DNA from: a virus
Virus record (IMG/VR): IMGVR_UViG_3300035698_002621
Span: 1 to 38,380 of that record
DNA: 38,380 nt
Strand: one strand, 5' to 3'
This document shows, in pieces, positions 128-25,105 of this stretch (positions are counted from its first letter, which is position 1; every line of letters starts with the position of its first letter). Made by a program: the position numbers and the translations under genes. The notes beneath the pieces were generated by a model. It had not been told where the DNA came from. It did no database searches and saw nothing but the letters and a program-made list of their open reading frames with translations.

Positions 128-2645
128 CCTCACCACCGGCAAGGGTATACGTTACACTCGTTTGCGCGTTCACCCCAGCCGTGTCGGCCTCCTGTATGAT
201 CACATAATTACTCGCGCCGGTAGCTGCCGCGCTCGAAAGTAGCCAAACGTAGAACGTAAATGATTGCCCGACACTGAGCTTTTCGGTGTTGTAGAATTGC
301 ACCACCTGTACGGCGTTCTCAGCCCCGGCGCCGGGAACCAACCGACCGCAATAAGCACCGAATAGCGGACTCGCTTGACGCGACCATGTGCCGCCAGAAG
401 CTGTCCACGCATCCGCAATCGTCGTATCTTCAAACGAGTTATTCGCGAGATATTGCTTAACCCGTGGCCGCGCCTGTCGTGCTATAAGGTGCATGAGACT
501 GTTAGACTCGACCGAACCGACAAGCGGCGTATCTTCCCAATGCGTGCCGTATTGAAAGCGTGCTGAATGGAAACGCTCAACCGTGTCACGGGCTGAAATG
601 GTTACGTGTGAGATGTTTAGATATTGCGTCGTGCGTGAGAACCCCGCAGCAGATAACCTACCTACAAACGAGTAGTCAAAATCACCGTCATACCAATCCT
701 CGACCCATACTCGGCAGCGTCGTTGTAGATACTTTTGCGTGACGAGTCCGTTATAGACCGCGTTATTCGGATCAAAAGCAGCATACTGGTCGTCGGAAAA
801 CTCGCCGTTGTGATTGTTTAGCGCAACGGCGAGAGTATTCGACGAGTGCGCACCTGACAAACGATTCGCAACGCCTTTCTCGAATGACAAACCTGACACA
901 TAAGGCGATGACGGTACGTGGCACCGAGTCTTGCCCGTCGCGTGTCCGTCCATCGACCAGTAGATTTCCTCAGCGGTGACGTTCTTGAAATCGTTCTGCA
1001 CATCGGCGTCAGTTGCTACGTAGTCAGGAAACATGCGAACGTATGCAATATTGTAGTCTCCGGTCCCAAGACTTGTAGTGTTTCGCAATGTTACCTTATT
1101 CAGTACAGACGTTTTTGCATCTATCGCCGCGCCCCATGATGTATCATCTTGAGTTTTGTTCATCCACAGGCTCGACCCATCGGCTCGCGCATTCGTTAAG
1201 TCGTCAATCGATATGGTAAGCGTAATCCATTGATTGATATTTCGTTCTGCCGTTCCGTCATCATAAACCGCAGACGTCATAAACCGCCGCGTTCCACCAT
1301 CAATCCACGCCACAACGAAATAATCACTCCCGGCATCGTAGTATATTCTAAACCCCTGATTCGCGCTCAAGTACCATTCAATCAAACCCTCATTTCCTGA
1401 CGTATGCGCAAAGTTGGGTTTGAACTTTATTTGGAATGAAAAACTATCAGGCAACGTCACCAAATGCTCGGTATACCCACCAGTCAGCGAATGCGTGCCT
1501 GGTACGCTGTGCCGAGTAACGCGGATGTCATCGATATAACCAGCACCGCCATTACCAATCGAGTCGACACCGACAAGCGACATTCTGAACCCTGTCGCGG
1601 TAGTCGGTAATGTGACCGATGTGCTTATATTCGTGACGCCGGTTGATTTCACGGTTTGTATATCGCTCACCCACGCAGCGGAGTCATAATATCTCACGAC
1701 AAATAGCGCGTAATTGGACCCGCCATTCTTGTCATACCCACCGGCAACGGGAATATTTACCACCGCAGATACTTCGACCGTTTCACCTGGGACAATCCCG
1801 TGTAGGTCTGTAGTGAGTATGTTGTCGGTGAACTCATGCGTTACGTCAGAACCTGCATTGTGCAGTAGCTTGTATGAGTAGTCGCCACTGCGCGAATATT
1901 CATCCGACCGTAAAAACGTGCCGTTAGTATCTACGCCGCTCGTTTCGCCAAGTAACGCCGGAACTGTCGCACTCTCACAATTGCCACGGTCAATCAAATT
2001 GTCCTCACTGGCAAGGGTGAATGCGGGGTAGCGATGCGATTCCAAATCATCGACGTAAAAATACTCAACATTAGCCGAAGCCGATGCGAATGAGTATTGG
2101 ATTCCGAAACCCGTCGCAGAATCATTCAAGGTTCCACGTACCGCGAGTTTTTCCCACGAGTCAAGGACCGACGCGCTCGAAGCGGCAACCTCGTGCCATG
2201 CAGCCGAATAGTATTCGATGATAGCAACAGATACTTCAGCGGCAGTGGGTCCGCCGGTAGTAGGAATCTTTACCCACGTAACGTATTCAACCGTTTCGCC
2301 GGGTAGATGACCGTGCATGTCGGTAGTCAACACTGTGTCTTGAGGATACCAATATGCAGCGGTTCCAGCAGCAACGGTTTTCGTTACGAGATAGGATGAA
2401 CTACCAGAATGCGCTTGTGCTGTTGAGATTGCAGCCGTGGTGTTTGAATGTGAATCGGCAACCTCGCCGCGCATAGAAGGAGGCGTACTACTCTCACAAT
2501 CACCACGGTCAATGTATGTCCGCGTATCGCGTGAAACATCTGGGTAATCCAAACCACGGAAGTCGATATAGAGACGTTCGTCTCGGTCTGTCTGACCACC
2601 TGTTTTAAGATTCGTTTGCCAATCTGTGCCGATTGAGTCTATCAT
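1..2645 (-). CDS. Tail hub / receptor-binding protein with carbohydrate-binding domains (N-terminal part; continues across the circular join)
   Basis: The frame is open from the ATG at 2645 to base 1 and continues in phase at 37569-38253, giving about 1109 residues. The ATG overlaps the tape measure stop (ATGA). Two similar beta-sandwich segments, at about residues 40-190 and 215-380, start with IDRGDCES and IDRGNCES and share the pattern VPGETVE and YIDD; they look like CBM/galactose-binding folds. About residues 384-575 resemble a LamG/concanavalin domain (FSFQIKFKP, QGFRIYYD). A third CBM-like segment begins near residue 735 (NNSFEDT). Position after the tape measure fits the Dit/Tal region of siphophages. 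I infer a hub protein that binds surface glycans; the exact family is not identified. Confidence 0.75.
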   Translation of the reverse strand, partial: MIDSIGTDWQTNLKTGGQTDRDERLYIDFRGLDYPDVSRDTRTYIDRGDCESSTPPSMRGEVADSHSNTTAAISTAQAHSGSSSYLVTKTVAAGTAAYWYPQDTVLTTDMHGHLPGETVEYVTWVKIPTTGGPTAAEVSVAIIEYYSAAWHEVAASSASVLDSWEKLAVRGTLNDSATGFGIQYSFASASANVEYFYVDDLESHRYPAFTLASEDNLIDRGNCESATVPALLGETSGVDTNGTFLRSDEYSRSGDYSYKLLHNAGSDVTHEFTDNILTTDLHGIVPGETVEVSAVVNIPVAGGYDKNGGSNYALFVVRYYDSAAWVSDIQTVKSTGVTNISTSVTLPTTATGFRMSLVGVDSIGNGGAGYIDDIRVTRHSVPGTHSLTGGYTEHLVTLPDSFSFQIKFKPNFAHTSGNEGLIEWYLSANQGFRIYYDAGSDYFVVAWIDGGTRRFMTSAVYDDGTAERNINQWITLTISIDDLTNARADGSSLWMNKTQDDTSWGAAIDAKTSVLNKVTLRNTTSLGTGDYNIAYVRMFPDYVATDADVQNDFKNVTAEEIYWSMDGHATGKTRCHVPSSPYVSGLSFEKGVANRLSGAHSSNTLAVALNNHNGEFSDDQYAAFDPNNAVYNGLVTQKYLQRRCRVWVEDWYDGDFDYSFVGRLSAAGFSRTTQYLNISHVTISARDTVERFHSARFQYGTHWEDTPLVGSVESNSLMHLIARQARPRVKQYLANNSFEDTTIADAWTASGGTWSRQASPLFGAYCGRLVPGAGAENAVQVVQFYNTEKLSVGQSFTFYVWLLSSAAATGASNYVIIQEADTAGVNAQTSVTYTLAGGEGWVKASVTHTITDSDSDRLNIAFSAAAGDTIDADGAMLINGD

Positions 2646-5198: not shown

Positions 5199-5633
5199 TT
5201 AGGTTGCTGTTGCGTGAACGAGTGGCCCTGCCGATTGCGCCCAATCTGCCGACCATCCTTGTAAACCTTCCGCGCTGTTTGTTTTGGTGATATTGCTCAA
5301 CACGACATTTCCGCTGAACATGCTTGCCGTTGATTCGATGAACTTCGCAGCCATTACCGCCGGTACGCCTCCAGATACAAATTGTATATCTGCCCGTTGC
5401 GTAGGTGACGACGATGCGCTTGATGCCAATGCCGGGTCAAACCGCATAACGCCATTCAGACTACCGTTGAAATCTTTGTACTTGCTGTATATTCGCTTTG
5501 GACCTGAGCTACCAAGATCGGGCGTGTCGATAGCCCCGGTGTTGATATTCATGGTCCATCCGTTCATGTATGACAGCTTTTTACCGTCTAAGTGCAGAAC
5601 ACCATCTGCCCCATATATAAAATCGTTAGCCAT
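5199..5633 (-). CDS. Major tail protein, second copy
   Basis: This 144-residue protein is a paralogue of the next gene upstream (5643-6074). Both begin with MAN.FIYG.DG, share NGWTMNINTG, DTPDLGSSGPKR and YSKYKDF, and end with SAEGLQGWSADWAQ. The family forms the stacked rings of the tail tube. AGGAG lies six bases before the ATG. The middle third, about residues 65-100, is where the two copies differ most. SPP1 also makes two forms of tail tube protein, but from one gene by frameshift; here they are separate tandem genes. One copy may be the bulk tube subunit and the other a minor or tip form; the sequence does not say which. Confidence 0.83.
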   Translation of the reverse strand: MANDFIYGADGVLHLDGKKLSYMNGWTMNINTGAIDTPDLGSSGPKRIYSKYKDFNGSLNGVMRFDPALASSASSSPTQRADIQFVSGGVPAVMAAKFIESTASMFSGNVVLSNITKTNSAEGLQGWSADWAQSAGPLVHATAT

Positions 5634-5642
5634 ACGCTACTC

Positions 5643-6074
5643 CTATGTAGATGTATTACTATCGTGCGCCAGTGGTCCGTCAGCCTGTGCCCAATCTGCA
5701 CTCCATCCCTGTAAACCTTCCGCGCTTTGAGTCTTTACGATATTCGAGAACACAACATTACCCTTGAACATGCTCTGACTCGATTCGACGAACTTGGTAT
5801 ACAATTTCGTCGGTGTACCGCCTGATACGAACATCGATGTTATCGCCTCTTGTGCAGCACTCGTAGCCGCCACCGGGTCGAACACCGTCTCGCCCGTCAT
5901 TGAGCCGGTGAAATCTTTATACTTTGAGTAGGTCCGTTTAGGGCCGCTCGATCCAAGATCAGGCGTATCAACTGATCCAGTGTTTATGTTCATCGTCCAG
6001 CCGTTTAGATAGGTGACTATTTTCGCGCCTACCGATACGGTCCCATCGACTCCGTAAATAAATCCATTTGCCAT
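5643..6074 (-). CDS. Major tail protein, first copy
   Basis: This 143-residue tail tube protein is closely related to its downstream neighbour and sits between the tail terminator and the chaperones, as in SPP1-type phages. The ATG at 6074 has GGAGG six bases upstream. Shared blocks include NGWTMNINTG, DTPDLGSSGPKRTY and SKYKDFTGSM, with a conserved C-terminal QSAEGLQGWSADWAQ. It lacks an obvious Ig-like extension. The strongly repeated blocks in both copies suggest a duplication that has since diverged, mainly in the loop region. The tail tube role is inferred from length, order and the typical 'NGW' beta-rich composition. Confidence 0.84.
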   Translation of the reverse strand: MANGFIYGVDGTVSVGAKIVTYLNGWTMNINTGSVDTPDLGSSGPKRTYSKYKDFTGSMTGETVFDPVAATSAAQEAITSMFVSGGTPTKLYTKFVESSQSMFKGNVVFSNIVKTQSAEGLQGWSADWAQADGPLAHDSNTST

Positions 6075-7510: not shown

Positions 7511-8085
7511 CAGTCTGCAACCTTCAACCCGGTAGCTGGTGTGTGTTCGTACCAATCCGCTCGGAATGAAACAGTGTTACCCGTGCTGCCACTTGCGAAT
7601 CTACGCAAATACGTTGTATTCGGTTTTAGCACAAGCTCATTACGGCGCCCTGCTGCGCCGCCTACGTTACCCTTGAATACCGTCCCGCCTACCTTCCAGT
7701 TCGCAAGCCGCGTACCAACTGCTGTAGATGAGGTTACACCACCGACGAACGTTGCGAGGCTTGCCTTAGTGCTGTTACGGTTGTGATTGATGGGCGTCAC
7801 CGTTGATCCGCCAGCCATCCCACCCTTAGCCTCCTCCCAGAATCCAGTTTCAAGAATACCGTTCGATTCAATTACCCACGTCAAGTGCATTTCTGCCGCA
7901 GTGTTTGGCGATACCAACTTAGCGAAAAACTCTTGTGTGTCTGACATCGTAGTATTGCCTTCTACGTAAAACCCGTCCCCATCGTGCGTTTCGTGGTGAT
8001 TGTGGTCGATTACAGTGATAGACTTACTCACACCATCTCGAGCATTCTGTAGCAGGTTGATTATCGGAAATGAGTTACCCGACAT
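7510..8085 (-). CDS. Phage virion structural protein, head-tail region
   Basis: This 191-residue protein is beta-rich and has the His/acidic motif VIDHNHHETHDGDGFYVEG near residues 25-43, which I recognise from many phage structural proteins of unknown role. The C-terminal half (LKPNTTYLRRFASG, NTVSFRADWYEHTP) looks like a beta-sandwich. It lies between connector and head closure, where the standard SPP1 order has no gene of this length, so it may be a decoration or fibre-like protein. The ATG shares a base with the connector stop. The virion role is inferred. Confidence 0.66.
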   Translation of the reverse strand: MSGNSFPIINLLQNARDGVSKSITVIDHNHHETHDGDGFYVEGNTTMSDTQEFFAKLVSPNTAAEMHLTWVIESNGILETGFWEEAKGGMAGGSTVTPINHNRNSTKASLATFVGGVTSSTAVGTRLANWKVGGTVFKGNVGGAAGRRNELVLKPNTTYLRRFASGSTGNTVSFRADWYEHTPATGLKVAD

Positions 8086-8705
8086 TACTGCGCTCTCGCC
8101 TTGCGGAACTTATCCAACCCGCTCACAAGCGAATACGGATACTGGTTGTTCCCAATTTGAGTACCTGGTCCTGGATACGATACCGAGTAGTCATCGATAC
8201 GCTCCGTTATAGCCCCGTTCGGTTTTTTGTTGCTTACCTGGTACCAGATCATTTTAGCTGCGATAGGTTTTAGAGCATTCGGCCAATTTATACGGCTTAT
8301 GCGGATGCCTCCGGTAGCGTGGTACGAGGTATCCTGATCCAAGCTCACGAACACACCAGTCGAGGTCATCGACATAGTGCCGCTTGATACCGTCCCGATT
8401 GTGTTGATTCCGTAGTTACTACCGCCTGCAATAGCAATGTCCATACCAGCAGAGAATCCAACCGTGCTGAATCGCGCCTGGTCGTCTGTGATGTAATCCG
8501 CTTGCGATGTCCCTGTGTCAGTATTGCCACGCACGAACGCGATGCCGCCTGACGCTTCGCGATAGATAGTCCTATCCTGAAACCAATTATCGAGATAGGT
8601 ACAAATGTCCTCTTCGATTATTGGGATATACGTACTTATCAGCGTGTCGTATGTCGCACTCGCCTCACCGATAAACGCCTTGACCTCCGCAAGCGTCATT
8701 AGCAT
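8085..8705 (-). CDS. Head-tail connector (SPP1 gp15 / HK97 gp6-like)
   Basis: This 206-residue protein begins with the helical signature of connector adaptors (TLAEVKAFIGEASATYDTLI, IPIIEEDICTYLD) that binds under the portal. An inserted beta segment of about 85 residues (GNTDTGTSQADYITDDQARF onward) separates it from the C-terminal helices (LKPIAAKMIWYQ, SLVSGLDKFRKARA). The insertion makes it about twice the length of HK97 gp6. ATG at 8705 overlaps the previous stop, with a second ATG six bases later that could also be used. Confidence 0.8.
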   Translation of the reverse strand: MLMTLAEVKAFIGEASATYDTLISTYIPIIEEDICTYLDNWFQDRTIYREASGGIAFVRGNTDTGTSQADYITDDQARFSTVGFSAGMDIAIAGGSNYGINTIGTVSSGTMSMTSTGVFVSLDQDTSYHATGGIRISRINWPNALKPIAAKMIWYQVSNKKPNGAITERIDDYSVSYPGPGTQIGNNQYPYSLVSGLDKFRKARAQ

Positions 8706-9004
8706 TACAACAGCACCTCTTCGTACGCTACGACTTTGTGCCCGGTTGAATTAGCTGACAACCGTATTCCAGTGGTCAAACCGCCACCTACAAACGCGCC
8801 TCTCGGTAATGCAAACCCAGACGATATCAGCGAGCTACCAGTTATGCCTGATGCCTGCACGAGTGCAACGGCTGCCTCAGAACTTACCACCTCAAATCCA
8901 TACCACTTGCCAGTTTTAGCCGCGCCGCTCATCGTCGATGTTATAACCGTTGCGTGCGTGTTTTTTGATATCTGCTTGTACCCTGCTCTGTCTCCGCCAT
9001 CCAT
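8705..9004 (-). CDS. Small virion-operon protein, unknown
   Basis: The real start is ATG 9004, which shares one base with the upstream stop (TAATG) and has GGAGG seven bases before it; this gives 99 residues. After a short basic N-terminus the protein is Gly/Ala/Ser-rich and beta-prone (ASGITGSSLISSGFALPRG, LSANSTGHKVVAYEEVLL), like a small capsid decoration or head protein. It has no motif that I recognise. Its neighbours are the putative glycosyltransferase-like gene and the connector. Confidence 0.62.
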   Translation of the reverse strand: MDGGDRAGYKQISKNTHATVITSTMSGAAKTGKWYGFEVVSSEAAVALVQASGITGSSLISSGFALPRGAFVGGGLTTGIRLSANSTGHKVVAYEEVLL

Positions 9005-9861
9005 TATACGCCTCCTACACCTGTACCTATGTTTCCGAGTTGATATTGTCTCATCATATATTCGCACTCTCCGATAGCGCCGTCTTGTCGAAGCTTCTGC
9101 TTTTCCCAGCGAATCATCTCGCTCTCGGCCTGAGACTGCCCGCCTTGCAACGACGTTAACCTGTCGCGCAGTTTCGGAATCGCTGGATGATAGCCCTCGT
9201 AACCGTATAGACCGTTTGAGGTTAGTACCGACCCGCCAGGAGCCATGAGTATGTCAATTCCGGCGCCTTCCATGCGCCCAAGCCAATACTCGCAACACGG
9301 TCTCTGCTCTGTGTACTCTTCGCGCGATGCCATGTGTATACCATACAGCCCAACGTGATACGGCTTACCAGTAGTCAGGTATGAGTGGTAAGCCCAAGCG
9401 AGCATGTAAGTGATACTCGTGGTGTGATAGCGCCTGTACTCCGGCTTGGTCAGCACGTCTATTGGGAACCGTACCGAATTAGGCACCTCTTTATAGTGGT
9501 CCATCATATATGTCGGACCTTCGTAATTGTTCAGCCGTTCGCGTATCTCTGGTCGATCCCAATACGCTCTATTGTGCATCTCAAAAAGCAGGTCAGAACG
9601 CTTGAACGCCGGGAACGTGGTACACACCGATACGCCCCAAATCTCGTATCCGTCATCGTTATATGGAGCCATCGGCATAGTTTCAGCCGTTCCGACTATC
9701 GCGAGCTTGTCTTTTTGGCAATAGAGCAATTCGCTTTTTTTACCTTTCTTCGGCTTGTACTCGTCCTTTTTCGGTAGCTCCGCCGCTTCTTTCTTTACAT
9801 TGATTATGTCTTCCGCGTCATCGACCAACATATTCTCAATCTGCGTAGTTTTATGTGCCAT
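9004..9861 (-). CDS. Rossmann-like phage protein, possible sialyltransferase/Maf-fold enzyme in the capsid operon
   Basis: From ATG 9861 (AGGAT four bases upstream) this is 285 residues. After a charged linker (residues 1-48) comes KLAIVGTAETMPMAPYNDD followed by YEIWGV, a glycine-loop plus Trp start seen in a family common in phages. Near residues 145-175 are HTTSITYMLAWAYH, then YHVGLYGIHMA and EEYTEQRPCCEYW. In GT42 sialyltransferases and DUF115/Maf proteins a nucleotide-binding loop is likewise followed by TSG...A...A...G..I.L.G.D. I therefore suggest, as an inference, a CMP-sugar or other nucleotide-sugar transferase. An enzyme here, between capsid and connector genes, is unusual. The C-terminus is a charged helix (SQAESEMIRWEKQKLRQ). 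Confidence 0.55.
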   Translation of the reverse strand: MAHKTTQIENMLVDDAEDIINVKKEAAELPKKDEYKPKKGKKSELLYCQKDKLAIVGTAETMPMAPYNDDGYEIWGVSVCTTFPAFKRSDLLFEMHNRAYWDRPEIRERLNNYEGPTYMMDHYKEVPNSVRFPIDVLTKPEYRRYHTTSITYMLAWAYHSYLTTGKPYHVGLYGIHMASREEYTEQRPCCEYWLGRMEGAGIDILMAPGGSVLTSNGLYGYEGYHPAIPKLRDRLTSLQGGQSQAESEMIRWEKQKLRQDGAIGECEYMMRQYQLGNIGTGVGGV

Positions 9862-9915: not shown

Positions 9916-10383
9916 CTACGGTACGAGAATCGGGCAAATCAGGACATTTCCAGCGTCGGACGTGGCCCTCGCTTTCGATATCTTGATATACCCGTTGGTA
10001 TCCTTAAACCGCGTTCCGTCGAAAGGACCGATTGCAGCGATACCTACAGTACCACCGGTAGTCGCAAGCCCCTCAGTCAAAGCGGTCGTCGGAAATACAC
10101 TGTGCATCTTCACACGAGACCATGCCGAGCCGCGAGCTACGTAGTTCGCTTCCCAACACGAGCCAGACGAAGCAGACGCCGACGCGCCGAGATAGATATC
10201 TCCGGCAGTCGTTCCCACATCGGTCGTGTTCAAGCTGGCAACAAGTATAACTAACTTGCTGCAATCAACACCATTCACATCGAGATACTGGTTGTTAGCA
10301 CCGGAATCCAAGGTACTCCAATTCAGCGTCACGGGGTTAGATGAGAACGCAAGGCTCTCAATAGAACTTTCTTTAACTGCCAT
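9916..10383 (-). CDS. Capsid-associated protein, possible decoration protein
   Basis: The start is ATG 10383, just past the capsid gene stop and nine bases after GGAGG; 155 residues. The protein is beta-rich with Ser, Thr, Asn and Gly in abundance (LNWSTLDSGANNQYLDVNG, YLGASASASSGSCWEANY) and has no enzyme motif. A gene of this type directly downstream of the major capsid gene usually encodes a decoration or head-fibre protein. The Ser/Thr richness would make it a suitable acceptor for glycosylation, but that is only a suggestion. A 54-base gap separates it from the next gene. Confidence 0.6.
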   Translation of the reverse strand: MAVKESSIESLAFSSNPVTLNWSTLDSGANNQYLDVNGVDCSKLVILVASLNTTDVGTTAGDIYLGASASASSGSCWEANYVARGSAWSRVKMHSVFPTTALTEGLATTGGTVGIAAIGPFDGTRFKDTNGYIKISKARATSDAGNVLICPILVP

Positions 10384-10384
10384 C

Positions 10385-11236
10385 TTACGTTGCCTCCGCA
10401 GTATAATCAGCGTACAAGACGCCAAGGTTGTTTGGCCGTGTCACCTTACCACCGTAATACATCAGGCCCTTAGCAAGTGTTACGAACTGCTTTGAGGGTC
10501 GGACGATCTCAGCGGTCATGACCTGAGCGGCCATAGAAATTGAACCCTGATAACCGAAGAGAGCAGGGTATCTGTTAGTGCCGCTCAAGGCGACAACGTT
10601 GTTCGAGCTAAATACGTTAAACCCGTAAACTCGCCCGAGATAGCCTTCACCGAATACAGCGTTGTTGTCAGTCTTCTGTACGATACCGGCTAGGGTCGCT
10701 TTGTGAGCTAACCAAGCAGGAACTACAGCCCAACGGCCAGCGGTCGGTGTGTTCGCTTCATCGTGCTTGCGTGCGGCTTCCATGAAATAAACAAGCACGT
10801 TAGTCGAGGTGATATCTGCGCCGGTGGTTGATGTCCCGCCAACTGCGATAGCCGCGTCGCCATAAAGTGCCGCTATGTAAGCGTCAACATTATCACGCAA
10901 TGCCCATGATGCCTCATCAAGTCCATCCTGGATGAGCTTGATTCGCGCCTGAGCATTATCTACATCCTCAATCGTAAAGCTGTACGACGCCCCTTGATCT
11001 ATATCAAGTTTTTGACCAGCTGCGTCAAGCTGTTCGATGGTCAGGTCACTTGTCGTCCCCGGCGTATACGAATTGACCGAAACCGGCCCGACCTGTATGA
11101 TTTTTACAGACTGTCCGTACCCAGTGATTTCACCTTCGTAATCGGTGTTAGCCACGTTCATGAATACTGACGCGTCATTGAGACGCGCAAGTATTTGACC
11201 AGATACGATATCTGGTTTTAATGCGTCTAATGCCAT
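10385..11236 (-). CDS. Major capsid protein
   Basis: This 283-residue protein follows the scaffold and has the features of HK97-fold capsid proteins related to P22/SPP1-type coats: an N-terminal region without a long delta domain (ALDALKPDIVSGQILARL), a beta-rich E-loop-like segment (GQSVKIIQVGPVSVNSYTPG), a spine helix region (FTIEDVDNAQARIKLIQDGLD), an A-domain (VVPAWLAHKATLAGIV) and a C-terminal RVYGFNVFSSNNV. AGGAG lies six bases before the ATG. Position and length agree with the call. No protease gene is present, in keeping with a separate scaffold and no delta domain cleavage. Confidence 0.9.
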   Translation of the reverse strand: MALDALKPDIVSGQILARLNDASVFMNVANTDYEGEITGYGQSVKIIQVGPVSVNSYTPGTTSDLTIEQLDAAGQKLDIDQGASYSFTIEDVDNAQARIKLIQDGLDEASWALRDNVDAYIAALYGDAAIAVGGTSTTGADITSTNVLVYFMEAARKHDEANTPTAGRWAVVPAWLAHKATLAGIVQKTDNNAVFGEGYLGRVYGFNVFSSNNVVALSGTNRYPALFGYQGSISMAAQVMTAEIVRPSKQFVTLAKGLMYYGGKVTRPNNLGVLYADYTAEAT

Positions 11237-19242: not shown

Positions 19243-19286
19243 TTTGCGCCTCCGTTGTATAACTCAAGCACCTCGATAGTTCTCAT
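19239..19286 (-). CDS. Possible 15-residue micro-ORF linking two genes
   Basis: A 16-codon frame fills the gap between the dehydratase gene and the sigma-like gene. Its start overlaps the upstream stop (ATGA), its stop overlaps the downstream ATG (ATGA), and its last codons carry the GGAGG of the next gene. It may be a translational coupler and not a functional peptide. Confidence 0.3.
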   Translation of the reverse strand: MRTIEVLELYNGGAK

Positions 19287-20128
19287 GCGGGTCTCACCGG
19301 CGCGTACCATTCCATAACCTCGTCAAATAGGTCACGATTGCGCCAGTAGATAACCGTCGCTGAATATGGGAGATAGCGCGTAACGTCAAACTTATGCTCG
19401 AATCCTGACGGGTAGGCTAAATCCTCGACTTCCTTCTCGCCGTCCATCAATTCTTCGTACTCGATCGTCGTGTTGCCGTGTTCCGTCATCACCCGCTTTG
19501 CGATGTCGGTCATCTTATAGCACGGAGGGTCTTGCAAGTGAAACACATGAGGATTGTCGTCAAGGCATTTCACGGCCTGCGTTATTTGGTGAACCGCCAT
19601 TTTCTCCGTGATATAATGCCGCCGCGTGCCCTTGCCACGTATGACGATCGGTTCGCCCTTACGTGCTTTTTCTGCCCAGATCAATTCGGCGCACCCATTA
19701 GAATAGTGTATATTTACCAACCTGATTACGCTGCCGTACTCAAGCGCAATTCGCTCACCTGCGTACTTCGAAAAGCCGTAAACGTTGATCGGGTAAACCG
19801 CCTTGTCGGTCGATATCTGTAGTAACTTCCACTCACCGTCCATGCTTGCGAGCGCATTCGAGTTGACCTCCAAAGCACGAAACGGGTTATCCTCGCAATG
19901 CACAACGTGTTTCATCGCCGCGCAATCTATCACCACGTCGGCATGTGCCTTGTCCCAAAATCGCGCGTTGCAGATATCCTCAACTATCGGCGTGATAGGA
20001 TAGTCAAGCGATAGGTAGTGCAGGTCGGTCTCATTGATATCCACCGCTATTACGTCGTGATCGTGACAGTAATGCCTACACAAAGCGCTACCCAACGTAC
20101 CGGCTGCACCGGTTATGATTATTCGCAT
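19283..20128 (-). CDS. PseB/CapD-like UDP-sugar 4,6-dehydratase (NAD-dependent epimerase family)
   Basis: This 281-residue short-chain dehydrogenase-type enzyme has the Rossmann loop GAAGTLG at residues 7-13, AAMKHV at 70-75 and STDKAVYPINVYGFSK at 106-121. The T-D-K triad and Y117xxxK121 are the catalytic groups of the CapD/PseB/LegB dehydratases, which convert UDP-GlcNAc to a 4-keto-6-deoxy sugar with NADP+. It is somewhat short (PseB is about 330). It is the last enzyme gene of a cassette that also holds aminotransferase, CMP-transferase and nonulosonic synthase genes, so I place it as the first step of a pseudaminic- or legionaminic-type pathway. Exact product stereochemistry cannot be read from sequence. 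Confidence 0.8.
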   Translation of the reverse strand: MRIIITGAAGTLGSALCRHYCHDHDVIAVDINETDLHYLSLDYPITPIVEDICNARFWDKAHADVVIDCAAMKHVVHCEDNPFRALEVNSNALASMDGEWKLLQISTDKAVYPINVYGFSKYAGERIALEYGSVIRLVNIHYSNGCAELIWAEKARKGEPIVIRGKGTRRHYITEKMAVHQITQAVKCLDDNPHVFHLQDPPCYKMTDIAKRVMTEHGNTTIEYEELMDGEKEVEDLAYPSGFEHKFDVTRYLPYSATVIYWRNRDLFDEVMEWYAPVRPA

Positions 20129-20505
20129 GCTATTTCCTGTACGCGCCTCTCATTAGCTATTTTTACTGCGTGTTCAAGGTCGCGTGCGCGTATATCGCGA
20201 TAACTGACCATTTTCCCATCGTTCCACATACCCTTAAAGCCATGGTGTACAACGTTATCATATTTCACGCCCCACTTCCCTCTGTCTTTTGCCGATATTA
20301 CAGAACCAGTTTTCCGATACATGGAGATGTCCCACAACGGCATTCTGGGGGCTGTGCTGTTTATCTCGTACTCTTCAACCGTGCCCTCGTCCCACTCGTC
20401 GCTCACATCCTTAGCACACACCTCGGCTACAAGATTATCAGAAAACGCGGCAATTATATGATAGTCGCTGTATGATCCTTTAGTAACCAAATACACTCTT
20501 TTCAT
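20119..20505 (-). CDS. Conserved small phage protein, unknown
   Basis: The 128-residue product begins with KRVYLVTKGSYSDYHIIAAF, a start common to a family of small phage/bacterial proteins (VYLVxxGxYSDYxIxAxF) of unknown function, and ends in a charged helix (RDLEHAVKIANERRVQEI). It sits between the aminotransferase (overlap ATGA at 20502-20505) and dehydratase (overlap 10 bases), so it is co-translated with the sugar genes. I do not know whether it works in the pathway. Confidence 0.62.
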   Translation of the reverse strand: MKRVYLVTKGSYSDYHIIAAFSDNLVAEVCAKDVSDEWDEGTVEEYEINSTAPRMPLWDISMYRKTGSVISAKDRGKWGVKYDNVVHHGFKGMWNDGKMVSYRDIRARDLEHAVKIANERRVQEIACE

Positions 20506-21167
20506 ATTCCCTCCGAAAACATCGTAAATTGCGACAAATCCGCGTAGTCATCGTTGGGCAAATCGTCGTTATGGTCTGGAATGTATTGCATCAACGCTAA
20601 CCCCCTAGCGGCGTCAGTTGGTTCTAAAAGGCAATGATAACCCGGTACATCAAAAGAATCAAGTCGTGTCTTCACACCCTCTGTACGCCCATCGTAGCGC
20701 ATTCGGCGCAATGTGTCGGCTGTCGCTTTGTCGTCTGTGAGGATCATCCCACCGCGCCCGATTGGTAAGTGCTTGGCATAGTGGAATGATAGGCAAAACA
20801 ACATGTTCGGCTCGTACATATTTTTCGTAAATCGCCGCGCAGAGTCAACGATATTCGTCCCGCCGAGTAAGTATGCCCCGCTCCAATCCTTGCTGTTGAA
20901 CTCGCACTTGTGGCCGGCGAGTATCACAGCCTGCGCCACACCGACATATGTGAACCGTGGCAACCCTATATGTCGATTGCCTACTCGTAACCGCTCAAGC
21001 AGCAGGCAAAGCAGCAACGCGTTCGTGCAGCTATCAACTGCGACACCATACGGCGCACTCGCGTAATCGGCAACGCTTTTCTCAAAGTCACGTACTGTAT
21101 TCCAAGGTGAGGTTACACGGTCCCAACCGCTCGCGTATAGTGATTGCGAACTAAAGGTATCACACAT
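20502..21167 (-). CDS. DegT/DnrJ/EryC1-family (PseC-like) sugar aminotransferase, short form
   Basis: From ATG 21167 (GAGGAG seven bases upstream) this is 221 residues. The PLP-dependent sugar aminotransferase marks are present: SCTNAL at 46-51, FTYVGVAQAVILAGHKCEF at 72-90, D108 in NIVDSARRF for the pyridine nitrogen, and the PLP lysine K132 in SFHYAKHLPIGRGGMILTD, followed by EPTDAARGLALMQ. Members are usually 360-390 residues; here the C-terminal small domain is almost absent. The catalytic core appears intact, so it may be a minimal enzyme. In the pathway it would aminate the 4-keto sugar made by the PseB-like enzyme. Confidence 0.8.
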   Translation of the reverse strand: MCDTFSSQSLYASGWDRVTSPWNTVRDFEKSVADYASAPYGVAVDSCTNALLLCLLLERLRVGNRHIGLPRFTYVGVAQAVILAGHKCEFNSKDWSGAYLLGGTNIVDSARRFTKNMYEPNMLFCLSFHYAKHLPIGRGGMILTDDKATADTLRRMRYDGRTEGVKTRLDSFDVPGYHCLLEPTDAARGLALMQYIPDHNDDLPNDDYADLSQFTMFSEGI

Positions 21168-21426
21168 CGCAAAGCTCCTCGTAATCGTCAAGGTGGTCAT
21201 ATACCTCATCGACAACGTATCGGCCGATTGCGTCGTATCCCCTGAGTATAGCTGCGGGCATCCCTACTACAAACTCTATGTACGATACGCGAGCCTCGAC
21301 ATAATCCATTCCGTCGGCTTTTGCAGTCTCTATCTGTGTACGCAGCGTATCACGTATAGATTTATACGACTCGTACACGTTTTCGATACGCTGTAACTCG
21401 TTTGCAAAATCCTCTAATTCTGACAT
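21160..21426 (-). CDS. Small helical protein within the sugar cassette
   Basis: From ATG 21426, overlapping the stop of the CMP-transferase gene as TAATG with GGAG seven bases upstream, the protein has 88 residues. Residues 1-40 are a charged helix (LEDFANELQRIENVYESYKS), followed by a short hydrophobic segment (YIEFVVGMPAAILRGYDAIG) and an acidic end. It overlaps the aminotransferase gene by 8 bases (ATGTGTGA). No family is recognised. Confidence 0.55.
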   Translation of the reverse strand: MSELEDFANELQRIENVYESYKSIRDTLRTQIETAKADGMDYVEARVSYIEFVVGMPAAILRGYDAIGRYVVDEVYDHLDDYEELCDV

Positions 21427-21719
21427 TAGCAATCTCCTTTATTTCCGTGCATCTTAGTATACATCAGCTCGGCCATATCCCAATCGTCTTGCGTGTCAAT
21501 GTCAATGGCCCTGGTAGCGGGTATCTCAACGTAGCCTGCTTCCATCGGGGTCAAGGTTCGCGCCATCATTAACCAGGTTACATCTGCAACATACCATTGA
21601 CCGGCTGGGTAGTACACTTTCGCGAAATTATCGGAGTTGACATCCTTATATTCAGGGTAGCGAGGCGTTACCGTGTCGCCATTGACAATCAACGCACGTT
21701 CCGGTGCTTCACGTGATTC
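21426..21719 (-). CDS. PseF/NeuA-like CMP-sugar cytidylyltransferase, C-terminal part in a -1 frame
   Basis: Read one frame behind the upstream part, from 21719 the sequence gives ESREAPERALIVNGD, then TPRYPEYKDVNSDNFAKVYY, PAGQWY and TRAIDIDTQDDWDMAELM. These match the second half of PseF/NeuA-type enzymes, including the PERAL, DAGQ(F/W)Y and IDTxxDWxxAE blocks. A local TTG start at 21692, overlapping the previous stop, could be used alone, but it would miss the ESREAPERA stretch. Joined to the upstream part it restores a protein of about 228 residues, the usual length. I read this as one gene broken by a single-base frameshift. Confidence 0.72.
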   Translation of the reverse strand, partial: ESREAPERALIVNGDTVTPRYPEYKDVNSDNFAKVYYPAGQWYVADVTWLMMARTLTPMEAGYVEIPATRAIDIDTQDDWDMAELMYTKMHGNKGDC

Positions 21720-22111
21720 GTAACCGGGTACGCAACGTGACGCCCGAGGTCTTGCACTTGATGCAACCCCTTGATAATGTCAAACCTCTCAGCGAGTGGT
21801 GCGCAAGGGTATATCATTATAACCATGTCGAAATTGTTAATCCTGGTATCTAACACATCAAGCACGACATCCACCATTGGCGTGTCATCCAGACACAGCA
21901 CTTGGTCACGCGATCTCCACGCGCAACCAAGCGACATAGCAATCTCGCCTATATCATCATCATCACTCGATACCACTACATGATTGCAGCCAGTCGCATG
22001 CGCCAACTCTATCGAGTGCTGAATCATCGGCTTTCCGCGAAACATCTTCGTGTTCTTTCCCGGTAGTCTCTTGCTCGTCGCTTTCGCTGGTATTACGCAT
22101 AGTGTTTTCAT
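21689..22111 (-). CDS. PseF/NeuA-like CMP-sugar cytidylyltransferase, N-terminal part
   Basis: The start is ATG 22111, with AAAGGAG five bases upstream. The protein begins with CVIPAKATSKRLPGKNTKMF, the CTP-binding start motif (IPARGxSKRxPxKN) of CMP-sialic/pseudaminic acid synthetases, and continues with HVVVSSDDDDIGEIA and MIYPCAPL. The frame meets TGA at 21689 after an unrelated-looking tail (TNHVKHRNVR, residues 131-140), while the homologous continuation is in the -1 frame from about 21719. The enzyme activates a nonulosonic acid with CTP. The break may be an assembly error, a true mutation, or a frameshift used in translation; no slippery heptamer is evident. Confidence 0.78.
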   Translation of the reverse strand: MKTLCVIPAKATSKRLPGKNTKMFRGKPMIQHSIELAHATGCNHVVVSSDDDDIGEIAMSLGCAWRSRDQVLCLDDTPMVDVVLDVLDTRINNFDMVIMIYPCAPLAERFDIIKGLHQVQDLGRHVAYPVTNHVKHRNVR

Positions 22112-22241
22112 CGTTACTCCTTTTGACGAGATATCCGATAGCCGCAAATTGCGCTGATACCCTCGAATCTGTTTCGTCTTGCTTGGTTTCGAGTGCTTGT
22201 ACTCGCTTGGTTAGCTCGTGAAATGCTCGTAGGTCAATCAT
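21963..22241 (-). CDS. Small charged coiled-coil protein (overlaps CMP-transferase start)
   Basis: The 92-residue frame starts at ATG 22241, nine bases after AGGAG. Residues 1-45 (DLRAFHELTKRVQALETKQD) look like a coiled coil; the remainder is low-complexity charged sequence that overlaps the CMP-transferase gene by about 150 bases, which is unusually long here. The N-terminal part is in an otherwise unassigned gap, so some product is likely, though the true end or a frameshift may lie earlier. Confidence 0.42.
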   Translation of the reverse strand: MIDLRAFHELTKRVQALETKQDETDSRVSAQFAAIGYLVKRSNDENTMRNTSESDEQETTGKEHEDVSRKADDSALDRVGACDWLQSCSGIE

Positions 22242-22314: not shown

Positions 22315-22526
22315 AACGCCTCCCAATATGGACAATGTTCTAAGTGGGTAGAACCTCTATGAATATGCCCACCGCACGGCTTAGGTATCCCGCCAACAAA
22401 ATAAAAAGCATTCGGCAACTCAGGAAGTTTCACTTGATATCCGCACATACCGCCTTTCTGTGGGTGTAGGCGACCGTTTTTGGTCCTGTCCCAATCTGCG
22501 TGTCGGCACTTATCGCAACTTTTCAT
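22311..22526 (-). CDS. Small zinc-binding protein
   Basis: The 71-residue product has CDKC at residues 4-7, C28, C51 and C65 with neighbouring His residues (H9, H54, H56, H62), a probable zinc-binding module. The N-terminus MKSCDKCRHADW resembles small phage proteins with a CxxCxxxxW start. The ATG overlaps the synthase stop (ATGA), placing it in the sugar operon. The role is unknown. Confidence 0.6.
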   Translation of the reverse strand: MKSCDKCRHADWDRTKNGRLHPQKGGMCGYQVKLPELPNAFYFVGGIPKPCGGHIHRGSTHLEHCPYWEAL

Positions 22527-23185
22527 AACGCCTCCAAAATATCGCGCAACTGCTTCGGTCGCAAAGCAAACGGTCCAGTGTCAGGCCCTGTTTGCCAATC
22601 AAGGCAAAAGTGCGTCTCGTATAGTTCTGGGCGGTAGATATTAAGTAAATCCATTCCTACCGTGTGATCGGTGTGGTCTGATATCCCCGCACGTAGTTGA
22701 GTGTCAGTGAACCGGCTTACGTAGTCTCCTGCTTTTGCCGGGTATTCGCGGACGCAACACATGAGATTCGTGTTTCCTCGTCTGATATACAGGTCGTGTT
22801 CTATGCTTGTTTCTATGCTCACGATACTTCCATGCTCCCAATACGTATTCCGCGTGAACAGCATTAGATGATCTTTCGACGCTTGATGATTCGCTGCCTT
22901 GGTAAACGGCACGTCAAATATACCGAGAAACTTCGCCGACTCGTAATCAAAAACACTCGCCGTAGTAGCATACCCAAGCTTTAGAGCGTAATCGTACGCA
23001 TACGAAAATATGCCCTGATGCAAAGCGCGAAGGTGTGTAAACTCACCACCACGGAATAGCTGCCATTTGAGAATGATTTCCGTCTCTCTATTATCAGCAT
23101 CGTCAACCTCGTCGATCATTGTGCGGACAGCGCGTGGGTCATTTTTGCAAGTCTCACCGCTGCCAAGGTCTAAAATTATCGTCAT
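22523..23185 (-). CDS. NeuB/PseI-like nonulosonic acid synthase, short form without SAF domain
   Basis: From ATG 23185 (AAGGAG five bases upstream; overlaps the previous stop) the protein has 220 residues. NeuB marks are in order: LKWQLF at 39-44, TTASVFDYESAKFL at 74-87, DVPFTKAANH at 91-100, CVREYPA at 144-150, SDHTDHT at 169-175 and YETHFCLDWQTGPD at 189-202. These outline the TIM barrel that condenses phosphoenolpyruvate with a hexosamine to give sialic, legionaminic or pseudaminic acid. Known enzymes are about 340 residues; the C-terminal antifreeze-like (SAF) domain is missing and the barrel seems shortened. With the other three enzymes it supports a phage-made nonulosonic acid. Confidence 0.78.
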   Translation of the reverse strand: MTIILDLGSGETCKNDPRAVRTMIDEVDDADNRETEIILKWQLFRGGEFTHLRALHQGIFSYAYDYALKLGYATTASVFDYESAKFLGIFDVPFTKAANHQASKDHLMLFTRNTYWEHGSIVSIETSIEHDLYIRRGNTNLMCCVREYPAKAGDYVSRFTDTQLRAGISDHTDHTVGMDLLNIYRPELYETHFCLDWQTGPDTGPFALRPKQLRDILEAL

Positions 23186-23556
23186 ATCATCTCCTTTTGT
23201 AACCACCAACCCATTTTCAGATCCTCGGAGTTCTGATCGTATTCCTTGCGGAAAACACTATGTCTGTGCGAGCTATCAAACTTCGGCTCTCGCGGAAATT
23301 GCTTACGTGTGCTAAGCCTGCAATGATACGGGATATCGTCATACCCGTCAATGATCTCTTCTTTGACCGTTGACTCGGCCTTTAGAGGCTTGGATATATT
23401 CGCTCCGTGAGCTCGCAACGTACTGACATGCGATATGACCTGTAATCTGCTAACCCCGTCTATGTGTCGCATTACCAACCTCGGCCCACCGATCGGGTAG
23501 TGCTTGATTATAACAGCATCGTCCGCGCTTGTCCATGATCGAGTCTTAGCACCCAT
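23182..23556 (-). CDS. Possible Myb/HTH-like DNA-binding protein
   Basis: The likely start is ATG 23556, overlapping the previous gene by 11 bases; an earlier start would run far into it. The 124 residues begin MGAKTRSWTSADDAVIIKHY, which has the spaced Trp and acidic pattern of Myb/SANT-like or GcrA-like helix-turn-helix domains, followed by GVSRLQVISHVSTLRAHG as a possible recognition helix. The C-terminal half is basic and ends WWLQKEMI. A DNA-binding role is an inference; the ribosome binding site is weak. Confidence 0.55.
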   Translation of the reverse strand: MGAKTRSWTSADDAVIIKHYPIGGPRLVMRHIDGVSRLQVISHVSTLRAHGANISKPLKAESTVKEEIIDGYDDIPYHCRLSTRKQFPREPKFDSSHRHSVFRKEYDQNSEDLKMGWWLQKEMI

Positions 23557-23821: not shown

Positions 23822-24243
23822 TCGTTACCTCCAGTAGCATCAGTGATCGGTGGTTCTTTCTCCTTTTGCTCACGCCAATAATTCACAAACCACTCTATGC
23901 GCCGGTCCTTCCGCTTATTCTCGGCTTCGAGGGTGGCGAGCTTCGTTTTGAGCAATTCATTATCGTTAGCCATGCACGTGATAATTTCCTCGCTCGGAAG
24001 GTCATACGCAACAGCATCTTCTTTCAACCATTCGTGCATGTATTCACCGGGGCGGCACCCGTTAGGCTCGGCATCATCCAACTTCTTAGATTCTTCCTTT
24101 AGAAAATGTCTGCGCCAGTTATCGAGTTCCTTCGTCTGCTCGTCGATGTGGGCGAGTAGGCTGGTCATCACAGCCGACGCCAATGGCGTATATTCGTACT
24201 CAGTGCAGTGAATTTTTATCGCTCGAATCGCTTCTGGTGTCAT
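23818..24243 (-). CDS. Small charged coiled-coil protein, unknown
   Basis: The 141-residue product starts at ATG 24243, six bases after AAGGAGG and 44 bases inside the repeat-protein gene. It has an N-terminal helical region (MTPEAIRAIKIHCTEYEY), a central segment (GCRPGEYMHEWLKEDAVAYD) and a C-terminal coiled coil (ELLKTKLATLEAENKRKDRR). No known domain. Confidence 0.55.
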   Translation of the reverse strand: MTPEAIRAIKIHCTEYEYTPLASAVMTSLLAHIDEQTKELDNWRRHFLKEESKKLDDAEPNGCRPGEYMHEWLKEDAVAYDLPSEEIITCMANDNELLKTKLATLEAENKRKDRRIEWFVNYWREQKEKEPPITDATGGNE

Positions 24244-25105
24244 TCGTTACCTCCTTCTCCCATAGTATTTTATCTCGATTATGCAATCTCCAATTTTGGC
24301 CGTCAAACGACGGAACCAATCCAGCACGCCACAAATCTATTGCCGGTTGAAACGGATTATCTCCGGATGCGTGTTCGGTATAGTCCCATTTTTCTACGTT
24401 TGGAAATAATGACGATATATAAGCCCAGACCGAAGCCCAGACCGAATCCCTGGCCGCAGCCCCGACCGAAGCCCCGACCGAAGCCCCGACCGAATCCCTG
24501 GCCGAATCCCAGACCGAAGCCCAGACCGCAGCCCCGACCGAAGCCCCGACCGAATCCCTGACCGAATCCCTGACCGAATCCCAGACCGAAGCCCCGACCG
24601 AATCCCTGGCCGAATCCCAGACCGAAGCCCCGACCGAATCCCTGGCCGAAGCCCCGACCGAATCCCTGACCGCAGCCCTGACCGCAGCCCTGACCGAAGC
24701 CCATGCGTCAACCAATTCTATCTCACGTTTCATGACAACCGATCGTGATTTTGTCCACGGATTAAACGGAAATGTAGAATGCTCAATATCCCAGTCCCAC
24801 GTCCTACTATGCATGCGGGTGATTATCTCTGATTTAGTGACCCTATCCCCCAACTCGAACTGCTCGTACCTGCGTTTGAATTGATCATACTCGACCGACT
24901 GCCCCCCGACTTCGCATTCGTATATAATCCTGCCGGGTCTGTATGCATAGCATAATCCATCAAGATCAGTGGCGTAGTATCCGCTAGAACAGGGCAGTGT
25001 TGCATCGGAATTAAAATCAGAGCACACGTATTTTTTTCCTGTGACGTATGTATGATTTTTGTATGGGCTGATTTTACCTGCAAGAAGAACCTTATATAGT
25101 TTCAT
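24200..25105 (-). CDS. Tetrapeptide-repeat protein
   Basis: This 301-residue protein starts at ATG 25105, six bases after AGGAGG. Residues 1-90 contain YVTGKKYVCSDFNSD, CSSGYYATDLDGLCYAYRPG and a short EYDQFKRRYEQFEL, resembling a leader domain found in phage repeat proteins (a 'G(F/Y)(H/Y)A...L' element). Residues 135-230 are about 24 tandem four-residue units of the form (R/G/W)(D/A)(S/A)(V/A), such as RDSVGASVWDSARDSV. The last 70 residues return to normal complexity with many Trp. The repeat may fold as a regular solenoid or amphipathic rod. Function unknown; it is reminiscent of, but not the same as, pentapeptide repeats. Confidence 0.72.
   Translation of the reverse strand: MKLYKVLLAGKISPYKNHTYVTGKKYVCSDFNSDATLPCSSGYYATDLDGLCYAYRPGRIIYECEVGGQSVEYDQFKRRYEQFELGDRVTKSEIITRMHSRTWDWDIEHSTFPFNPWTKSRSVVMKREIELVDAWASVRAAVRAAVRDSVGASARDSVGASVWDSARDSVGASVWDSVRDSVRDSVGASVGAAVWASVWDSARDSVGASVGASVGAAARDSVWASVWAYISSLFPNVEKWDYTEHASGDNPFQPAIDLWRAGLVPSFDGQNWRLHNRDKILWEKEVTNDTRSDSSDKNSLH
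24416..24703. repeat. Tandem 12-bp minisatellite inside the tetrapeptide-repeat gene
   Basis: About 24 imperfect units of 12 bases, based on CCGAAGCCC/CGAATCCCTG-type blocks on the plus strand. Because the unit is a multiple of three and free of stops, all nearby frames on both strands stay open. Unit gain or loss would leave the coding frame intact. Confidence 0.9.

Follow-up and report, generated by a model that had tools for sequence, protein, structure and literature searches.

What does the protein encoded between the capsid and connector genes of an uncultured tailed phage do, and why do sialic-acid-type sugar genes accompany it on the same DNA? The question is raised by IMG/VR record IMGVR_UViG_3300035698_002621, whose 38,380 nucleotides constitute the window analyzed here. 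A sequence-only reading had likened the protein to GT42 sialyltransferases and DUF115/Maf proteins and suggested that it transfers a nonulosonic acid to a virion protein. The GT42-like predicted fold, taken together with the company of sialic-acid-like sugar genes, suggests that these phages probably sugar-coat their own particles. We therefore regard as the probable explanation that the protein is a soluble nonulosonic-acid (sialic-acid-type) transferase with a GT42/Maf fold, acting on head proteins in the cytoplasm.

A head-operon gene and a distant sugar cassette

The open reading frame is real and its translation contains the three stretches that had been quoted from it, KLAIVGTAETMPMAPY, HTTSITYMLAWAYH and YHVGLYGIHMA. 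It lies, as described, within a head operon on the minus strand, in the order terminase, portal, head-morphogenesis-like, scaffold-like, capsid, Ser/Thr-rich head protein, the gene under study and head/adaptor protein, so that the major capsid protein gene is upstream and a head-tail adaptor gene downstream (Table 1). The stop codon overlaps the start of the next head gene (TAATG), with a strong AGGAGG-type ribosome site ahead, and no obvious membrane segment was seen in the protein sequence. Homologues of the Ser/Thr-rich head protein also adjoin the family at other loci. In the tail region, two adjoining and clearly related proteins of 144 and 143 residues (5199-6074, minus strand) likely represent a duplicated tail-tube-type gene.

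The distant nonulosonic acid cassette proved equally real, with PF02719, PF01041, PF02348 and PF03102 genes at 19.3-23.2 kb. The frame of its CMP-sugar synthetase (21430-22147, minus strand) is broken in the window: the N-terminal part ends at 21689 and the rest continues in another frame to ~21.43 kb, a change that could reflect either an error in sequencing or a genuine lesion. Elsewhere, an open reading frame at 24200-25105 contains a 12-base tandem array of 23.5 copies (24421-24703), across which more than one frame stays open, encoding DSVGAS-type or GFGQGFGRG-type repeats.

Table 1 Features of the window, with the domain plan of the protein under study.
Feature	Position	Strand	Remarks
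Predicted nonulosonic-acid (CMP-sugar) transferase	9004..9861	-	285 aa; Rossmann-like GT42/Maf/MptE fold
Modeled domain plan of the same protein	residues ~48-215; 227-274		Rossmann-like core; long C-terminal helix
Head protein / head-tail adaptor, downstream	8085..8705	-	phrog_1236, phrog_132
Ser/Thr-rich head protein, adjoins capsid gene	9916..10383	-	22% S+T; putative acceptor
Major capsid protein	10385..11236	-	phrog_267; putative acceptor
Portal	14255-12912	-	phrog_64
PseB-like nucleotide-sugar dehydratase/epimerase	19283..20128	-	PF02719
DegT-type sugar aminotransferase	20502..21215	-	PF01041
CMP-sugar synthetase, first part	21689..22147	-	PF02348
NeuB-like nonulosonic acid synthase	22523..23209	-	PF03102, E 1.1e-7; short, without C-terminal domain

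A protein family of uncultured phages at a recurrent head-gene position

Pfam and PHROGs searches with the single window protein gave no match. Scanning IMG/VR with an alignment of four members yielded at least 112 confirmed relatives, 80 of which were kept, and GTDB genomes contributed eight further members, all in metagenome-assembled genomes. By contrast, three different queries against 50,697 phage records detected one member only, in Microcystis phage Mvi-Yong1342-1; the family is thus widespread among uncultured phages, as had been claimed for phages in general, but not among phage records. The Microcystis homologue (L005:8902-9705) adjoins the terminase small subunit gene. Its GenBank label, type 11 methyltransferase, is backed by neither models nor profiles and looks like a misannotation.

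The reading frame is not a chance one, because some relatives share 50-54% of their residues with the window protein and, of the 112 confirmed homologues, the 68 that were aligned have five invariant columns. These are P66, E73, W75, P133 and G174, while G57, D69, I74, R88, F93, H96, A157, E182, Q186, G201 and Y219 are nearly invariant; E182, Q186, R187 and H96 are specific to the family. The G-x-D strand proposed earlier is absent from the window protein itself, which reads G-I-H, but describes most of its relatives: position 176 is aspartate in 72% of the family and histidine in 19%, including the window protein.

The genomic position is conserved as well. Upstream neighbors of the family match major head proteins of PHROGs 10, 617, 2263, 267, 283 and 334, or head morphogenesis or portal families; downstream are head-tail adaptor or head closure genes (phrog_442, 1161, 40, 25 and 132) and Phage_connect_1. 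The family therefore recurs between capsid and head-tail adaptor genes in unrelated phages with several capsid lineages.

The predicted fold resembles GT42 and Maf transferases

The AlphaFold2 model of the window protein, built with the 68-member alignment, has a mean pLDDT of 86.9 and about 97 in the core. The three best Foldseek matches in the PDB were CstII (1ro8, E 7.6e-4), CstI (2p56) and a P. multocida sialyltransferase (9c08). Structural comparison with VIA gave the highest Z score for Maf (5mu5; Z 12.3 over 170 residues, 3.3 Å), followed by MptE (M. jannaschii HPPK, 10.8), CstI (10.5), thiamin pyrophosphokinases (up to 9.5) and human ST8SiaIII (about 7.8). We also modeled a distant Bacillota homologue that shares 30% identity with the window protein (pLDDT 94.1, pTM 0.91), for which the first seven Foldseek matches were all CstII (E 3.5e-5 to 1.2e-3), with structural Z scores of 9-10 to CstI/CstII. 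Maf is not among the structural matches listed for the Bacillota model, which does not count against the Maf likeness, and the long C-terminal helix of the window protein is absent from it. The comparison with CstII, Maf and MptE that had been proposed thus returned transferase folds, GT42 ranking best by Foldseek for two family members, with Z scores of about 9-10.5.

At the sequence level the resemblance is more distant. The family profile placed CstII first among PDB sequences at a sub-threshold E of 0.2, and hhalign aligned the family with CstII at E 4e-5 and probability 70. In this alignment Y183 faces CstII Y162, and the alignment stops short of H188; a clear equivalent of the catalytic His188 of CstII was not found in the alignments, and the His188 loop is shortened in the family. 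The window protein itself gave no match to the Pfam CST-I model PF06002 or to PF01973, and other members stayed below both cut-offs (PF06002: best of 68 members, E 0.044; PF01973: 4 of 68 members weak, best E 0.0081). Because TM-scores to GT42 reach only moderate values (0.38-0.50) and the same fold is found in thiamin and pterin pyrophosphokinases, the reaction cannot be read from the fold by itself.

The family is linked to CMP-nonulosonate genes

The co-occurrence survey that had been proposed gave frequencies far above controls in both directions. The CMP-sugar synthetase PF02348 is present in 24 of 50 family-bearing records and NeuB in 15 (14 over cut-off), compared to 0/95 for each in control phages without the family, these being lineage-matched rather than randomly drawn, with many fragments among the records. 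Controls were phage records related to the window by terminase or capsid lineage, with the few family carriers removed; both sets were fetched with alignments, since single-sequence TerL and capsid scans yielded too few. One record fetched via capsid similarity (G056) was dropped from the terminase control as a family carrier. Restricting the comparison to dereplicated records of at least 20 kb, PF02348 was found in 13/17 family-bearing records versus 0/49 controls (p 1e-10), and NeuB in 8/17 (p 4e-6).

Conversely, the family is present in 25 of 50 NeuB phages that were found without using it; for comparison, carriers number 0/49 among terminase controls and 4/50 among capsid controls. In this reverse set a bacterial PseI served as ranking sequence, while phage NeuB rows chose the search patterns; a smaller NeuB alignment led by the PseI was used because the all-phage NeuB alignment was too divergent for scanning. 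The median gap between NeuB and the family gene, in reverse-set records with both, is 2.5 kb. At nine phage loci and five bacterial ones the CMP-sugar synthetase gene lies at most two genes from the family gene, in one case (L034) directly abutting it.

Cassette-positive members are spread over a maximum-likelihood tree of the family and force at least 10 changes, so the link is not the heritage of one clade; labels were set by hand from the NeuB and PF02348 searches, and the negatives are mostly fragments. The cassette was not seen in many family-bearing records, mostly fragments. In the Microcystis phage, the one cultured relative, neither NeuB nor a CMP-synthetase was found, and host CMP-sugars would have to serve there.

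The same association holds in bacterial chromosomes. The family is present on six Bacillota-type chromosome fragments (L084-L089), on five of them in two tandem copies, and NeuB and a CMP-sugar synthetase are nearby in all six; in three loci checked the synthetase has an additional weak HAD match. The neighbors that were tested included no phage head genes. These loci tie the family to CMP-nonulosonates independently.

MptE-like proteins occur in some NeuB phages that lack the family

PF01973 MptE-like proteins are present in 11 of the 50 NeuB phages, with the cut-off reached in five records. Ten of the 11 lack the window-protein family, and in the remaining one the match is the family gene itself. 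A separate PF01973 gene is thus found in 10/25 NeuB phages without the family versus 0/25 with it (p 6e-4). The two therefore look like alternatives, with the MptE-like proteins (L307-L311) apparently doing the same job while belonging to a different sequence family. As read from sequence, the MptE-like gene adjoins capsid/connector genes in L308 and L309, and NeuB directly in L311.

Discussion

In the mechanism that we propose, a CMP-activated nonulosonic acid of sialic-, pseudaminic- or legionaminic-acid type would come either from the cassette that the phage carries or from its host, and the single-domain transferase would move the sugar onto a head protein from the same operon, in the cytoplasm during infection. 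The linkage to CMP-sugar synthetase genes points, indirectly, to a CMP-nonulosonate as the putative donor. The acceptor would be the capsid or the adjoining Ser/Thr-rich head protein. Maf may serve as a model: its Maf_flag10 central domain resembles CstII, Ser/Thr of flagellin receives nonulosonic acids from Maf enzymes (PMC11339370), and this takes place in the cytoplasm, before export (PMC4065374).

With GT42 (CstI/CstII) the family shares, besides the fold, a K-h-hIhG loop, a T-x-S helix, a G-h-D strand and the tie to CMP-nonulosonate supply. It differs in its location in phage head operons, in a sequence identity of about 10-17% across the structurally aligned part with no above-threshold Pfam match, and in its shortened catalytic lid/His188 region (the catalytic set of CstII being His188 and Tyr156/Tyr162). 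Like Maf it is of a soluble, cytoplasmic type, has genes next to nonulosonic acid pathways and is expected to have Ser/Thr protein acceptors; however, Maf is a three-domain protein that targets flagellin, whereas the family combines a single domain with a helix and has head genes as neighbors. Because it falls outside the Pfam definitions of GT42 and PF01973 and lacks the Maf domain plan, we describe it as a new family with a GT42/Maf fold. Phage-encoded modification of virion proteins has precedent in principle, since actinobacteriophages are reported to glycosylate their virions (Freeman 2023, cited in PMC13313380). Those phages use other glycosyltransferases, and neither a nonulosonic-acid link for them nor a direct precedent for phage nonulosonic acid with such an enzyme family was found in the literature searched, which included few subscription journals.

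A transferase of this kind might instead act on something other than the virion, either host surface glycans (for receptor masking or superinfection exclusion) or phage DNA. Phages often carry sugar genes that modify surfaces, and the Bacillota loci, where the family occurs without phage head genes alongside, imply that acceptors differ between members. Nevertheless, we consider a non-virion acceptor unlikely given the recurrent site between capsid and head-tail adaptor genes in unrelated phages, the overlap of the stop codon with the start of the head gene that follows and the failure to see an obvious membrane segment in the protein or DNA-modification genes tied to the family.

The two remaining explanations dispense with sugar transfer. 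The fold that MptE/HPPK and thiamin pyrophosphokinases have in common with the window protein, and the name of the nearest Pfam model, MptE-like, would suit a nucleotide-dependent pyrophosphokinase or other pathway enzyme in sugar synthesis. To our knowledge, however, no such step is required in the known Neu, Pse or Leg pathways, Foldseek ranked GT42 first for both models and D176 is not conserved, making this very unlikely. Least probable, with hardly a chance in our view, is a head-assembly or decoration protein that retains a dead transferase fold. The constant place in the head operon and the long C-terminal helix missing from the modeled bacterial homologue would fit such a role, but not the strong tie to CMP-sugar genes, which is zero in capsid-matched controls and recurs in bacterial chromosomes without phage genes.

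The nonulosonyltransferase interpretation assigns a function that can be tested to a nameless gene family found next to the capsid gene of many uncultured phages, and it accounts for the sialic-acid-type sugar genes that such phages carry. If true, a dedicated enzyme would give particles sialic-acid-like coats, which would affect how stable virions are and how they adsorb and are recognized; a small, soluble scaffold for a protein sialyltransferase would also be gained. We lean, though only slightly, towards the wider proposal that a dedicated family of small GT42-fold nonulosonyltransferases coats the heads of uncultured tailed phages, across several capsid lineages, with sialic-acid-type sugars from phage-encoded pathways, and that in some spore-forming Bacillota the same family is the unrecognized nonulosonyltransferase. 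As of 2020, the enzyme that transfers legionaminic acid in B. subtilis had yet to be identified (PMC7439481), and the Bacillota homologues are a candidate for spore-surface nonulosonic acid transfer. Their loci are possible spore-surface nonulosonic acid loci; GerA germination or YheC/D genes lie near the family in two of the fragments.
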